From Arcobacter acticola (lineage in GTDB: Bacteria > Campylobacterota > Campylobacteria > Campylobacterales > Arcobacteraceae), in the NCBI RefSeq assembly GCF_013177675.1, contig NZ_CP042652.1:2170001-2234000 (forward strand): a stretch of DNA of 64,000 nucleotides, read 5' to 3'. Below, one piece after another: positions 28,897 to 34,761 of this stretch. Made by a program: the position numbers and the translations under genes. A model generated the notes under the pieces. The model did not search any database, had not been told where the DNA came from, and saw nothing but the letters and a program-made list of their open reading frames with translations. Each line of letters begins with the position of its first letter. The first letter of the stretch is position 1.

Positions 28897-29805
28897 TTAA
28901 TTATTATCTGAATTTCTTTTGTTAATACTTACTAGCCAATAAGAAATAGCTAAGGCAACTATTACTATGGCAATTATTAATAATTCTGTTGCTTTTTCTG
29001 TTGAAAGAGAATATATTAATACTTTTCTTATCAACGCTGCCATTGCAAGCATAATAAAAGCACCAATTGCAAAACCTTTTCCTTGTAAATGTTTTATCTC
29101 TTCATGTATTAACTCAATTGATGCCCATAGTACTAATAAACTTCCAAGTACTGTTAATATACCTTTTTCTATTTTTATATCAGTAAAAAATAATAAATAA
29201 ATATCATAAACAAACAAACCAATAGCAAAAAAAGCAATAATTCCTAAGGCAAATGCTAAAAAGTAATTAATAAAAGAATTGAATTTTTTTAGTGAAGATA
29301 AGATTCCTTTTTCTGTTCGAGATAATGATAAAAATTTCCCAAGTTCTTCTTCTCTATAAGAACTAGTTAAAACATCCAAATTCATATCAATTATTTTTTC
29401 AACTGCATTGATTTCTCTTACATGTTGTTCTTTATTTTCAAAATTCTCTTCTATACTCTTAAGTACAAATGTTCTAACAAAAGTGAAAGCAGAATTTACA
29501 TAGTGAGTAGGAAGACCAATTTGAACGTGAATTTCACCTATTTTATAAATAGATAAAAAATAAGATATATCATATTTACCAGAAAAAAGATTTATGAACC
29601 AAGCTTTAATTTTAATCTTATGTCTACTAATGATTTCATTGTTCTTTAAATATTTTGCAGTTCTTCCAAAACCCCAAATATAATCATAAAATTCATCAAT
29701 AAATGTATCGGCTAGTTTTTCCATTCTTGGTTGAAGTTTTTTTAAAATAAGAGCTTCTTCTTCAGTAAATTTATAGTGTTCTTTTAACTGGGTATATTCT
29801 TTCAT
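28897..29805 (-). CDS. Globin-sensor domain fused to PsiE-like membrane domain
   Basis: 302 residues. Residues about 1-155 resemble the globin domain of globin-coupled sensors (protoglobin): KLQPRMEKLADTFIDEFYD, then IGEIHVQIGLPTHYV, in which His93 is the candidate haem ligand. Residues about 175-295 hold four membrane segments with LLVLWASIELIHEEI and IRKVLIYSL-type motifs like the PsiE family. A haem/O2 or NO sensor wired to a membrane domain is therefore likely, but the output is unknown. AGGATAACAA precedes the ATG. It stands alone upstream of an IS. Confidence 0.72.
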   Translation of the reverse strand: MKEYTQLKEHYKFTEEEALILKKLQPRMEKLADTFIDEFYDYIWGFGRTAKYLKNNEIISRHKIKIKAWFINLFSGKYDISYFLSIYKIGEIHVQIGLPTHYVNSAFTFVRTFVLKSIEENFENKEQHVREINAVEKIIDMNLDVLTSSYREEELGKFLSLSRTEKGILSSLKKFNSFINYFLAFALGIIAFFAIGLFVYDIYLLFFTDIKIEKGILTVLGSLLVLWASIELIHEEIKHLQGKGFAIGAFIMLAMAALIRKVLIYSLSTEKATELLIIAIVIVALAISYWLVSINKRNSDNN

Positions 29806-30099
29806 TTGTTATCCTATCAAATAATTCTAATATAAAAATTTAAATTATCTCTAGTAATTATACTTATATATTAACCTAATAAACTTTTTTTCTTCAAGAA
29901 TTATAATATTATGTTAAAAACTCTTCAAAAGAATTATCAATAACAATATCTTCCTTATGTATTAATTTCTTAATAACCTACAATATCATTAATTTCATTT
30001 TCTTTTAATAGTAATAATAGTTTTCATTTAAATTCTTCTTTTAACAATTTTAAGAAAATAAGTTAAAAATTATCTTGATTTATATCAAAATATAATTAA
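29806..30099. other. AT-rich intergenic region left of the IS
   Basis: About 290 bases without a gene. The last seven bases (TAATTAA, 30093-30099) are one copy of the 7-bp target duplication of the IS that follows. Confidence 0.5.
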
Positions 30100-31579
30100 C
30101 TCAACTTTCGCACATAGAAAATCATAAATTCACTATATTCAAAAGCTTCATTAAACCCCATAAATAGACACTTTTAGCTATAATTGTTCACCACAAACAT
30201 TAATATATAAGGGCTTTTTATGGGTATTGACAATTTTATCGAAACTGCTATGAAGAGTGTGTTAAAGAATCCTATAGTTTTAGTTTTAAGAGATATAAAT
30301 TTTAGCAGTATTTTAAAACAAAGTAATTTTATCAAGCGTGATGTAGGTGTGCCGCCGTATATGGTGATCTTACAATTTTTATATATGTTCCTTATTAATA
30401 AAAAGATCTCATCCTTTATGAAATATAGTAATGACAGTTTTAAGAAAGATGTTTATTATAGATTACTAAAAAATAGTAAATACAACTGGAGAAAATTATT
30501 GTTGCTCACATCCGTGAACTTAATCAATAAACTTTCATCATTGCAAAAGCCAACTGATACAAAAGTATTTATCATTGATGACACAGTTGAAATTAAGCGT
30601 GGAAAATATATAGAAGGCAGTTGTAAGAATTTATGGAGCAATAAAGATAAAAGAGTAGTTAAGGGTTTAAATATTGTATCACTAAACTATAGTGATACTC
30701 ATACCGATATGATGCTAGATTTTTCCATGAACTATAATAAAAATCAAATTATAGATTCTATTGATAATAAATATCACCATAGAAGCAATGCCTATAAACG
30801 AAGAATTGAAGGGAGAAACGGTAAAAATATCCAAGCAATAAATATGCTAAAACGAGCTTTAAGTTCAGGAATATATGCAGACTATCTACTTGTCGATAGC
30901 TGGTATGCAAAACCAAATTTTATCAAAGAGGTTAGAGATAATGGTTTGGATACGATTGCAAGGGTTGCAAAAAGCAATAGAATCTGGCAGTTTAGTGGGA
31001 AATATAAAACACTTGAAGCTCTATATAATCATGAAAAACAAAATAAAACTTCAAAACTTGGTAACTATAATTCCATCAAATACTCCTATGTTTCAACTAT
31101 CACTACACATAAAACACTTGGAAGAGTAAAGATTGTATTTATAAGAACCAAAGAAAATCTAATACCAATATTTTCAACCAATATACATTTATCAGATTTA
31201 GAGATTATAAATACATACAAAAAACGGTGGAATATTGAGCAAGGATATAAAGACCTAAGGGAATACTTTCAATTCGGTAAAGAGGAAAACCGCATTTATG
31301 AATCCCTAATAGCTAGAATCACTCTATCATTCCTTGCATACAATTTAACAAGCTATATCAATCGTATCAATAATGAACCACAAACTTTAGGAAACTTATT
31401 CAAAGACTTAGAGTGTCAGCTTGAAACCCTTGCTATTTCAATGGAACTATTCCTAAAAATATTAGAAAACTTGCTCCAAACTACAGAAATTGTCAAGAGA
31501 AATAAAGATTTAGAGCTTATTATCAATGTTTTACGCATTCATACCAAAAAGCAACTTGGTTTTATGTGCGAAAGTTGAG
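30100..31579 (+). mobile_element. IS4-like insertion sequence, copy 1
   Basis: 1480 bp. The 17-bp terminal inverted repeats are CTCAACTTTCGCACATA (30100-30116) and its complement at 31563-31579, flanked by 7-bp direct repeats TAATTAA (30093-30099 and 31580-31586). The transposase stop codon lies inside the right repeat. It sits between the globin-PsiE gene and a rubredoxin gene and does not break any gene seen here. Confidence 0.93.
30220..31578 (+). CDS. IS4-like DDE transposase, copy 1
   Basis: 452 residues and apparently intact. The catalytic acidic residues are in IIDDTVEIKRG near 120, YLLVDSWYAKPNF near 224 and the C-terminal YKKRWNIEQGYKDLR near 340, which fits the IS4-group Y-R-E-K signature. 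It shares this layout and many conserved blocks with the transposase at 47470 but the two differ at a large share of positions, so they are related elements and not recent copies of each other. Confidence 0.93.
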   Translation: MGIDNFIETAMKSVLKNPIVLVLRDINFSSILKQSNFIKRDVGVPPYMVILQFLYMFLINKKISSFMKYSNDSFKKDVYYRLLKNSKYNWRKLLLLTSVNLINKLSSLQKPTDTKVFIIDDTVEIKRGKYIEGSCKNLWSNKDKRVVKGLNIVSLNYSDTHTDMMLDFSMNYNKNQIIDSIDNKYHHRSNAYKRRIEGRNGKNIQAINMLKRALSSGIYADYLLVDSWYAKPNFIKEVRDNGLDTIARVAKSNRIWQFSGKYKTLEALYNHEKQNKTSKLGNYNSIKYSYVSTITTHKTLGRVKIVFIRTKENLIPIFSTNIHLSDLEIINTYKKRWNIEQGYKDLREYFQFGKEENRIYESLIARITLSFLAYNLTSYINRINNEPQTLGNLFKDLECQLETLAISMELFLKILENLLQTTEIVKRNKDLELIINVLRIHTKKQLGFMCES

Positions 31580-31637
31580 TAATTAATTATTTTAGTTATT
31601 ATTAATTGATTAGAAACTCTTATTTAAAAGCCTTTTT

Positions 31638-31799
31638 ATGAATAAATATGTTTGTACTGTTTGTGGATATATATATAATCCAGAAATAGGTGATTTAGAT
31701 TCAGGTATTGAACCAGGAACTGCATTTGAAGATATTCCTAATGATTGGGAATGTCCTGATTGTGGTGTTAAAAAAGAAGATTTTGAAATAATTAATTGA
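31638..31799 (+). CDS. Rubredoxin, partner of the flavodiiron protein
   Basis: 53 residues. Two CxxC knuckles (CTVCGY near 6 and CPDCGV near 39) bind iron; the middle has [17 protein letters not shown]. It lies 8 bp before the flavodiiron gene on the same strand and is very likely its direct electron donor. An antisense frame covers it but is not a gene. It is similar to the rubredoxin at 11888. Confidence 0.95.
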
Positions 31800-31807
31800 G
31801 GTGAGAA

Positions 31808-33001
31808 ATGGGATTTAATATAAAAAATAACATTTACCTTGTAGGTAATGTAGATTGGGAAATTGAAAGTTATCAAGGATATAAATATTCAACACATAGA
31901 GGCTCATCATATAATGCATACCTTATTAAAGAGCAAAAAAATGTTTTAATTGATACTGTTGATTCAACATTTACTGATATATTTATTAAAAATCTTAAAA
32001 ATGAAATTAATTTAGATGATATAGATTATATAATTATAAATCATGGTGAAAAGGATCATACAGGTGCACTTCCTGAATTAATGAAACTTATACCAAATAC
32101 TCCAATTTACTGTACTAACAATTGTGCAAAATCATTAAAAGGTCAATTTCATCAAGATTGGAATTTTAATATTGTAAAAACAGGAGAAAAACTTAATTTA
32201 GGTGATAAAGAATTAATTTTTGTAGAAACTCCAATGTTACACTGGCCTGATAATATGATTTGCTATTTAACACAAGATAATATGCTCTTTAGTAATGATG
32301 CATTTGGACAACATTATGCTACATCAGCTATATACAATGACTTAGTTGATCAAAATGAGTTATTTGTAGAATGTTTAAAATACTATTCAAATATCTTAAC
32401 TCCGTATAATTCAAAAGTAATCAAAAAAATTGAAGAAATTTTATCTTTAAACCTCCCTCTTGATATGATTTGTCCTTCACACGGAGTAATATGGAGAGAT
32501 AACCCAACTCAAATTGTAGAACTGTATTTAAAATGGGCGCAAAACTATCAAGAAAATCAGATAACAATTCTATATGACACAATGTGGGAATCAACAAGAG
32601 ATATGGCAGAAGCAATAGCCAAAGGAATAAAAGAAGCAGATAGCCAAACAGTTATTAAATTAATACACTTATCGAAAAAAGATAAAAATGATGTTATTAC
32701 TGAAGTTTTTAAATCAAAAGCCATATTAGTAGGATCACCAACAGTAAACAAAGGAATTTTAACAACTATTGCTTCTTTATTTGAATTTGTAAAATCTTTA
32801 GAATTTAAAAATAAACAAGCAGCTGCTTTTGGTTCATTTGGATGGAGTGGAGAGTCTGTTAAACTAATTAATGCAAAATTAGTGGATAGTGGATTTGCGT
32901 TAGTAAATGAAGGACTAAGGGTTTCTTGGAAACCAGATGAAGAGACTATTAAAGAATGTGTTAAGTTTGGAAAGGATTTTGTTAAGGATTTAAATAAGTA
33001 A
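31808..33001 (+). CDS. Flavodiiron protein (NO/O2 reductase)
   Basis: 397 residues. The N-terminal metallo-beta-lactamase-like domain carries the di-iron ligands HGEKDH at 79-84, His in TPMLHWPDNM near 146, Asp in FSNDAFGQH and His in CPSHGVIW. The C-terminal flavodoxin domain starts near 255 (TILYDTMWESTRDMAEAI). Such enzymes reduce NO to N2O or O2 to water in the cytoplasm. GAGGTGAGAA precedes the ATG. It forms an operon with the rubredoxin; two regulators follow. Confidence 0.93.
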   Translation: MGFNIKNNIYLVGNVDWEIESYQGYKYSTHRGSSYNAYLIKEQKNVLIDTVDSTFTDIFIKNLKNEINLDDIDYIIINHGEKDHTGALPELMKLIPNTPIYCTNNCAKSLKGQFHQDWNFNIVKTGEKLNLGDKELIFVETPMLHWPDNMICYLTQDNMLFSNDAFGQHYATSAIYNDLVDQNELFVECLKYYSNILTPYNSKVIKKIEEILSLNLPLDMICPSHGVIWRDNPTQIVELYLKWAQNYQENQITILYDTMWESTRDMAEAIAKGIKEADSQTVIKLIHLSKKDKNDVITEVFKSKAILVGSPTVNKGILTTIASLFEFVKSLEFKNKQAAAFGSFGWSGESVKLINAKLVDSGFALVNEGLRVSWKPDEETIKECVKFGKDFVKDLNK

Positions 33002-33173: not shown

Positions 33174-34073
33174 ATGAATATATTAGTAATAGAAAATGAA
33201 ATTTATTTAGCACAAAAAATTGTATCAAAACTTATTAATGATGGGTATAATTGTGATTACATCGATTCACCAAACACGGATACTTTTACAAAAGAATATG
33301 ATGTAATTTTATTATCTACTTCTTTCCCTTTTAATTTTTGTAATAATATAATAAAAAAATACAATGAGAATTGTATTATTATTCTTTTAGTATCTTATAT
33401 TTCAGATGAAACTGTTACTCTTCATATTAAAAGTGGTGCTAAAGATTATATAATGAAACCATTTATTATGAATGAATTAATAAGAAAAATCCACCATTAT
33501 AAAGAATGTAAAGATATCAATAAAGAACTTCAAAAATTAAGAAATTATTTTCAATTTACTATGTTAGATATCAAAACTACAGATGTTCTATCAGCAACTT
33601 CTTTTCCCATATTAATAGAAACTAATGTTCAGAAATATGCAGATAAATTAGTTTATGAACTATCCATTAAAATGGCCTTGCCAATTACTTTTATTTCATT
33701 AACGACATCCAATTGGCAAGAACAAATAAATAAAATTCAAAAAAAATCAATTATTTATTTAATTAATTATCAAACTTTAAAAAAACATCCAAAAGAAAAT
33801 CTTTTGAAAATAATTGAAAATAAAAATTGTGTAATTTCTACATTAGAAGAAGAACTTGATTTTCCCTATACAAAGGTTGAAGCTAGAAATGCAAAAGGAC
33901 TATTAGCTAATTCAAATATTATGACTATTCCTGATTATGTAAAAACTATGGTAACTTCTTATCAGCATAAATATACAGATACAGAATTATCCAAAAAACT
34001 TGGAATTTCTAGAAAATCTCTTTGGGAAAGAAGAAAAAAATTTGATATTGAAAAAAGAATATTAATAAGTTAA
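33174..34073 (+). CDS. Receiver-like regulator with Fis-type helix-turn-helix, phospho-site lost
   Basis: 299 residues. The first 115 residues have the receiver fold (MNILVIENE, then GAKDYIMKPF), but the phospho-acceptor position reads DVILLST: Ser48 stands where Asp is expected. The middle (about 130-235) resembles a shrunken sigma-54 AAA+ domain without Walker A, and the C-terminus has a Fis-type helix-turn-helix (TDTELSKKLGISRKSLWERRKK). It looks like a degenerate NtrC-type regulator that no longer needs phosphate or sigma-54. Its place after the flavodiiron gene suggests control of it. Confidence 0.7.
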   Translation: MNILVIENEIYLAQKIVSKLINDGYNCDYIDSPNTDTFTKEYDVILLSTSFPFNFCNNIIKKYNENCIIILLVSYISDETVTLHIKSGAKDYIMKPFIMNELIRKIHHYKECKDINKELQKLRNYFQFTMLDIKTTDVLSATSFPILIETNVQKYADKLVYELSIKMALPITFISLTTSNWQEQINKIQKKSIIYLINYQTLKKHPKENLLKIIENKNCVISTLEEELDFPYTKVEARNAKGLLANSNIMTIPDYVKTMVTSYQHKYTDTELSKKLGISRKSLWERRKKFDIEKRILIS

Positions 34074-34128: not shown

Positions 34129-34761
34129 ATGCTGCAAAAGTTACGAAATGTTTATCTTTTAAAAGATGTATGTGATGAAACCTTAAAAGAAATAGCTAAA
34201 TATACTTCATATTTAAAACTATCAAAAGATAATATTCTTTTTTATGAAGGAGAAGATTCTAATTGTTTATTTCTACTTACAAAAGGTATAGTAAAGTTCT
34301 ATAAAACTTCATCAAATAACAAAGAAATCATCATAAAATATCATTATAGTAATGAATTCATAGCAGAAGTTGCAAATTTTGAAAATATTCCATATCCTGC
34401 AACAGGAAAAGCTTTTACAGAAATAGAAGCACTAAAAATTGATTTTAAGAATTTAAAACACCTTCTTTATTCTGATGCTAACTTAGCTTTAGTCATTCAA
34501 ACTTCACTTATAAAGAAAATAAGAAATCTTGAAAATCTTATACTTTTTGATGTAGTCCTTACTGCTGATGAAAGAATAGCAAAGTATATATGTGATAATA
34601 CAAAAGAGTTTTTTAATACAAAAAGAATAATAATTGCTGAAATTTTAAATATCACACCTGAGACATTATCAAGAAGATTAAAATTATTCGAAAATGATGG
34701 CTTGATTAATTATCAAAAGAAATCAATAGATAAGGAAAAACTTAAAACTCTTTTCTCATAA
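34129..34761 (+). CDS. Crp/Fnr-family regulator
   Basis: 210 residues. The N-terminal cyclic-nucleotide-binding fold (about 15-125; ILFYEGEDSNCLFLLTKG) is followed by a long dimer helix and a C-terminal winged helix (IAEILNITPETLSRRLKLFENDG near 175). No four-cysteine set for an iron-sulfur cluster is present, so it is not a classic Fnr. Members of this type (such as NssR in Campylobacter) respond to NO; the nearby flavodiiron protein makes that a fair guess. AGGGGTTAAT precedes the ATG. Confidence 0.85.
   Translation: MLQKLRNVYLLKDVCDETLKEIAKYTSYLKLSKDNILFYEGEDSNCLFLLTKGIVKFYKTSSNNKEIIIKYHYSNEFIAEVANFENIPYPATGKAFTEIEALKIDFKNLKHLLYSDANLALVIQTSLIKKIRNLENLILFDVVLTADERIAKYICDNTKEFFNTKRIIIAEILNITPETLSRRLKLFENDGLINYQKKSIDKEKLKTLFS

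Follow-up and report, generated by a model that had tools for sequence, protein, structure and literature searches.

In Arcobacter acticola, a sensor-globin (Protoglobin) domain and a PsiE membrane domain are joined in one real gene, and this fusion is a conserved protein family rather than an accidental joining. As judged from sequence comparison and gene surroundings, we lean towards regarding the fusion as a membrane-tethered globin-coupled gas sensor, which would most likely respond to NO and/or O2 in a respiratory or nitrosative-stress setting. The globin fold is the surest element of this reading, and the ligand is less sure, with NO placed somewhat ahead of O2. The gene was found in a window of 64,000 nucleotides, which is the whole stretch of DNA analysed here (contig NZ_CP042652.1, positions 2,170,001 to 2,234,000), and its features are collected in Table 1.

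Table 1. Features of the Protoglobin–PsiE fusion gene and its surroundings in the A. acticola window (positions count from the first letter of the window)
Feature	Position	Strand	Basis or remark
Protoglobin–PsiE fusion gene, 302 aa, ATG start	28897..29805	(-)	ORF and translation, Pfam
Sensor-globin (Protoglobin) domain, residues 2–154	29344..29802	(-)	Pfam PF11563 1.6e-27; 2w31 1.6e-40; model Z 19.0
Tyr40 (B10 position)	29686..29688	(-)	Invariant 55/55; gapless alignment to HemAT
His62 (E7 position)	29620..29622	(-)	Invariant 55/55; Leu in GsGCS
His93, candidate proximal haem ligand	29527..29529	(-)	Invariant 55/55
Linker, residues 155–178	29272..29343	(-)	Model
PsiE domain, residues 179–294, four membrane helices	28924..29271	(-)	Pfam PF06146 2.7e-21; model; hydropathy
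Glu231 (TM2)	29113..29115	(-)	Invariant 55/55 fusions; 32/32 with stand-alone PsiE and E. coli PsiE
Arg260 (TM3)	29026..29028	(-)	Invariant 55/55 fusions; 32/32 with stand-alone PsiE and E. coli PsiE
IS element between fusion and rubredoxin genes	30093..31586	(+)	DDE transposase ORF 30220–31578
Rubredoxin gene, divergent from fusion	31638..31799	(+)	Pfam PF00301 6.2e-24
Flavodiiron protein, anaerobic NO reductase flavorubredoxin type	31808..33001	(+)	NCBIfam, Pfam
Response-regulator-like protein, downstream of flavodiiron gene	33174..34073	(+)	PF00072 26.7 bits, under cut-off 30.2
Crp/Fnr-type regulator	34129..34761	(+)	PF00027, PF13545

Both halves of the protein score well above the Pfam cut-offs (PF11563, 96.8 bits against 25; PF06146, 76.4 bits against 23.9), and four hydrophobic segments (residues ~181–199, 215–233, 246–264 and 276–294) agree with the four helices in the predicted models, which bears out the two domains, including the four-span PsiE-like one, that the original prediction had named. 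No NCBIfam match at E <= 1 was obtained for the fusion protein. The AlphaFold2 model of the full fusion, built from 42 relatives, is of moderate confidence (mean pLDDT 73.8) and is weakest at residues 46–53, 151–161 and 296–302; in the linker region it places a helix at 125–160 followed by one at 163–207, with pLDDT below 50 at 151–161. The fusion gene is single-copy in the 3.02-Mb A. acticola genome, in which a second, weak match of PsiE type falls in a 153-residue open frame (G000:C1:229891-230124). Promoter-like sites were not in excess (21, against 25.4 in shuffles), and no terminator was found.

Relatives of the fusion amount to 55 distinct full-length proteins, merged from 66 full-length ORFs, many of which were the same record in two collections, and both Pfam domains were present at E <= 0.001 in all 42 relatives scanned (with 42 rows in A2 and 34 in A3). 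A collection scan returned 46 loci, which, where a group was named, belonged to Campylobacterota, mostly Sulfurimonas and Sulfurovum, with two named only as 'bacterium'; as the scan patterns had been built from proteins of Campylobacterota, the scan could overlook relatives in other groups. Four of these loci stand outside the 55, namely L054 and L055 (an in-frame stop each), L066 (cut by the contig end) and L067, where tblastn finds only 49 residues (L067:6001-6147; the end of the globin and the linker, 82% identical) that are likely a decayed fusion copy. The fusion is widespread yet patchy in Campylobacterota: it occurs in 21 of the 397 genomes of an even sample of this group and in 47 of 200 genomes from the family of G226, where G531, G603 and G620 have partial or broken copies and G617 has a copy with one internal stop. 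Among 104 Arcobacteraceae genomes, including that of A. acticola, 19 were matched and five of these carry the full fusion. On a tree of the fusions, the six rows labelled Arcobacteraceae (two by record titles only) need four label changes, which is compatible with horizontal transfer as well as with repeated loss. Stops or frameshifts in the copies of L160, L054, L055, G603 and G617 indicate that the gene is sometimes lost. Searches of mobile elements gave no fusion relative among the 29 stretches of viral contigs that matched a pattern, no match in phages, and in plasmids one weak globin match (29% cover) and none for PsiE alone.

The fusion gene is under purifying selection. The A. acticola gene differs from that of locus L022 by 35 nucleotides, all of them synonymous, and from that of L002 by 92 differences that fall in synonymous codons and 52 that fall in non-synonymous ones, over approximately 184 synonymous and 722 non-synonymous sites.

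The best solved relative of the globin half is 2w31, the globin domain of GsGCS from G. sulfurreducens (E 1.6e-40, collinear over residues 5–159), and the next are AfGcHK and HemAT in a sequence search that was repeated with a 42-row profile. In structural alignments the globin model reaches Z 19.0 with 2w31 (rmsd 2.5, 150 residues), Z 18.1 with HemAT and Z 17.8 with AfGcHK; the N-terminal fold, named beforehand as a point on which the sensor proposal could be refuted, is thereby globin-like. His93, which had been put forward as the candidate haem residue, occupies the one His column common to 2w31, AfGcHK and HemAT in that region, and this candidacy stands. The label F8 for this residue follows the numbering of solved globins, and Tyr40 is labelled B10 after HemAT, in which Tyr70 is B10. 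His62 was placed at E7 by counting back, in the gapless alignment to 2w31, from GsGCS His66 (E11), which an excerpt of PMC4476040 describes as the sixth haem ligand. Position 66 (E11) of the fusions holds Ile in 51, Leu in three and Val in one of the 55 proteins, the GsGCS-type His at E11 being absent, and His101 is invariant in all 55.

The histidine at E7 was considered as a mark special to the fusion and rejected, as it is also present in all 14 other globin proteins aligned from Arcobacteraceae loci (L006–L018, L020 and L021, with L009 and the fragment L019 left out and the residue at F8 unreadable in L018); it is therefore no sign of a ligand peculiar to the fusion. That the globin half probably binds gas is supported by the invariant His93, together with the NO- and O2-related genes that lie near the fusion at some of the loci. 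It is highly improbable that this half is instead a haem-free globin fold that receives another signal, as in the N-terminal domain of RsbR. That domain has the same fold (2bnl, Z 11.3), but it carries Ala at F8 and binds no haem according to an excerpt of PMC4476040, whereas His93 is invariant in the fusions.

The PsiE half, modelled alone, forms four helices (pLDDT 76.8). No solved structure matches it by sequence at E <= 1, and its model gave no PDB match by Foldseek at E <= 0.001. The top row of a VIA-align comparison, the CRAC channel Orai (Z 10.7, rmsd 3.7, 126 aligned), was left unused because its Z lies under approximately 13, the tool's level for meaningless helical-bundle matches. 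The PsiE family takes its name from E. coli, and its profile was matched in six of 14 well-known control genomes. Eight polar or aromatic PsiE residues (D201, W227, E231, E235, H239, R260, K261 and Y265) are each invariant in all 55 fusions. When seven fusions were aligned with 24 stand-alone relatives and E. coli PsiE, only Glu231 and Arg260, of the eight positions tabulated, were common to all 32 sequences, and this pair is likely a hallmark of PsiE; D201, W227, E235 and H239 were confined to the fusions among those sequences. An ExxH-like motif (E236, H239) was dropped as a metal site, since E236 is replaced by Gln in three of the 55 fusions.

The distribution of conservation bears on whether PsiE is a membrane anchor for the globin and nothing more. 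No activity of a PsiE protein is known to us, which would suit such a passive part. However, mean pairwise identity rises from the globin (0.742) through the linker (0.799) to PsiE (0.858), and this higher conservation of PsiE, along with its eight invariant residues, makes a mere anchor improbable. The individual membrane helices, TM1 to TM4, reach 0.836, 0.941, 0.962 and 0.730, so that the TM2–TM3 core, 94–96% identical on average, is the most conserved piece of the protein, which argues for a working output.

In A. acticola itself, the fusion lies beside a divergent rubredoxin–flavorubredoxin pair (Table 1). The flavodiiron protein exceeds the cut-off of one model for anaerobic NO reductase flavorubredoxin (NF008887, 698.9 bits against 635) and falls under that of a second model of the same name (NF003954, 600.8 bits against 711). 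The intervening IS element, which has inverted ends and a 7-base target repeat (TAATTAA), begins approximately 290 bases upstream of the fusion start codon and may disturb control of the gene. The fusion of L022 is likewise divergent from rubredoxin and flavorubredoxin genes, without an IS element there. The L022 contig is filed under a Sulfurovum MAG, and because it is mostly 97–99% identical in DNA to the A. acticola region, it is probably misbinned.

In some other loci, the surroundings of the fusion include nor or nap genes. In L039 and L049 the fusion is the last gene behind norC-norB-norD-norQ-norE-norF and shares their strand; it follows norQ-norE in L046, whose contig starts just upstream and cuts off earlier genes, and a broken copy follows norCBDQEF in L160. 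In L159 the fusion is found beside norCBDQ and genes for an Rrf2 regulator, a single-domain globin and a TM_HPP protein. Family searches were made on the proteins of L049, in which the Rrf2 protein passes only the superfamily cut-off of NCBIfam and not the NsrR one. The NorB used had no NCBIfam match above cut-off, and its identity was assigned from the match of the L049 NorB to 3o0r (E 4.1e-194), the P. aeruginosa enzyme. Directly downstream of the fusion lies napA in L062 and L064, with which L061 shares the upstream genes. In these clusters of nap type, the second gene upstream of the fusion encodes a conserved 414-residue protein, hydrophobic by eye (L061:4360-5604, L062:681-1925 and L064:4307-5551), which gave no Pfam match in L061 and no NCBIfam match in L064. 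Elsewhere, cydAB (L026), globins (L027 and L053), hemerythrins (L043 and L048) and, in further loci, genes for Fe/Mn SOD, TM_HPP or Crp/Fnr proteins are found near the fusion.

The enrichment of such neighbours was assessed with 23 reference proteins, all taken from the fusion loci themselves, against a control of 39 stretches, each 20 kb long, from ten fusion-bearing genomes. Of the 55 loci, 22 had a listed neighbour within two genes, compared with 14 of 649 control gene centres, and 14 had one within one gene on either side, compared with 11 of 727 control centres; the list was chosen post hoc and many loci are syntenic, so that the contrast is inflated and only its direction can be trusted. 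After removal of the ten loci that supplied references, 12 of 45 loci (counted by hand) retained a listed neighbour within two genes, and 33 of the 55 loci have none within three genes. NorB was present in 35 of the 47 genomes with the fusion and in 83 of the 153 without it (p 0.017, lists compared by hand), and its close type (at least 68% identity) in 14 of 47 and 32 of 153, respectively (p 0.24). The presence of NorB is thus tied weakly to the fusion, and a close coupling of the fusion to denitrification, which had been considered, is not borne out by this co-occurrence.

Besides NO, the neighbours suggest O2, superoxide and nitrate, which counts against our preferred reading. It is conceivable, though we consider it somewhat doubtful, that the fusion senses O2 only, in the manner of HemAT, AfGcHK and DosC, and that NO-related genes lie near it merely through respiration. 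The solved relatives of its globin, which are O2 sensors, would agree with this, as would the cydAB, SOD and hemerythrin neighbours and the weak co-occurrence with NorB, but the same-strand position after norCBDQEF in several loci and the place beside flavorubredoxin in A. acticola speak against it. Since our preferred reading leaves NO or O2 open, the two overlap, and their odds are not additive.

The same neighbourhood could also suit a membrane-bound scavenger of NO or O2 (an NO dioxygenase or a peroxidase-like globin) rather than a sensor, in which PsiE would supply electrons, for example from quinol, or position the globin beside NO-producing enzymes. Enzymes that consume NO, O2 or superoxide are encoded by several of the neighbouring genes (for flavorubredoxin, cNOR, SOD, globin and bd oxidase), Tyr40 and His62 are invariant, and the conserved polar residues of TM2–TM3 could form a cofactor or quinol site. 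Nevertheless, we regard scavenging as unlikely: Pfam gives no reductase domain in the fusion protein, several solved chains among the best matches bear the names of sensors or signalling enzymes, and the globin is the less conserved half.

If the fusion is a membrane-tethered gas sensor, as we favour, the globin would face the cytoplasm and bind haem as a dimer. Ligand binding would shift the last globin helices, and the linker helix would relay this movement into TM1, whereupon the invariant charged network of TM2–TM3 (Glu231, Glu235, His239, Arg260 and Lys261) would change state and so affect either a site for ions, protons or quinol or the way in which a partner protein docks, with PsiE TM2–TM3 acting as the putative transmitter. 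That no known output enzyme is attached to the fusion counts against a sensor. In a bolder form of the proposal, which we hold to be quite unlikely, PsiE would itself be a gas-gated membrane device, in which a site for ions, protons or quinol, built from these same residues (E231, E235, H239, R260 and K261), would be opened, closed or driven when the globin carries NO or O2.

Known outputs of globin-coupled sensors include methyl-accepting, kinase and GGDEF domains. HemAT, AfGcHK, DosC, BpeGReg and the globin-EAL proteins share the sensor-globin fold and the proximal His with the fusion, but their outputs are soluble, whereas the putative output of the fusion is a membrane bundle. The globin-EAL proteins are among the Arcobacteraceae globin proteins of approximately 400 aa encoded in L006–L018, L020 and L021; because an EAL domain was present in all six of those scanned, they are possible gas-controlled c-di-GMP phosphodiesterases. 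E. coli PsiE (136 aa) stands alone, unlike the globin-attached PsiE of the fusion, although both have the Glu in TM2 and the Arg in TM3.

The closest comparison is with GsGCS, which presumably has a C-terminal membrane part. Its globin is 41% identical to that of the fusion in structural alignment, and the sequences remain collinear through the SYREEE motif past the globin, but the E7 and E11 residues are Leu and His in GsGCS and His and Ile, Leu or Val in the fusions. An excerpt of PMC3500211 describes GsGCS as signalling to a transmembrane protein, so a membrane output of a globin sensor is not unheard of. The membrane-attached animal globins GLB-26 and globin X likewise hold a globin at the membrane; the excerpts on them name N-myristoylation and mention no membrane helices, in contrast to the four of the fusion. 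A search for PsiE together with globin or globin-coupled sensor found no account of the fusion in the literature covered, which left most subscription journals outside its scope. The suggestion of a gas-sensing membrane protein of a new type is therefore retained in part: architecture, fold and the NO- and O2-related neighbours of some loci favour the gas sensor, and the PsiE output was not found in the literature searched, but the GsGCS precedent removes the claim of a wholly new type. The features that appear distinctive relative to GsGCS are the putative PsiE output, HisE7 in place of HisE11 and the genomic context, the overall kind being already known.

PsiE is a widespread family with, to our knowledge, no known job, and that nature has joined it to a domain whose input can be predicted (NO, O2 or CO) provides a handle on it. 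The fusion also suggests a means by which Campylobacterota that oxidise sulfur and respire nitrate may detect NO or O2. Were the gas-gated device to prove true, it would represent a globin class that acts directly on the membrane and not through a soluble enzyme, the first such class as far as we know, and the orphan PsiE family would gain its function.
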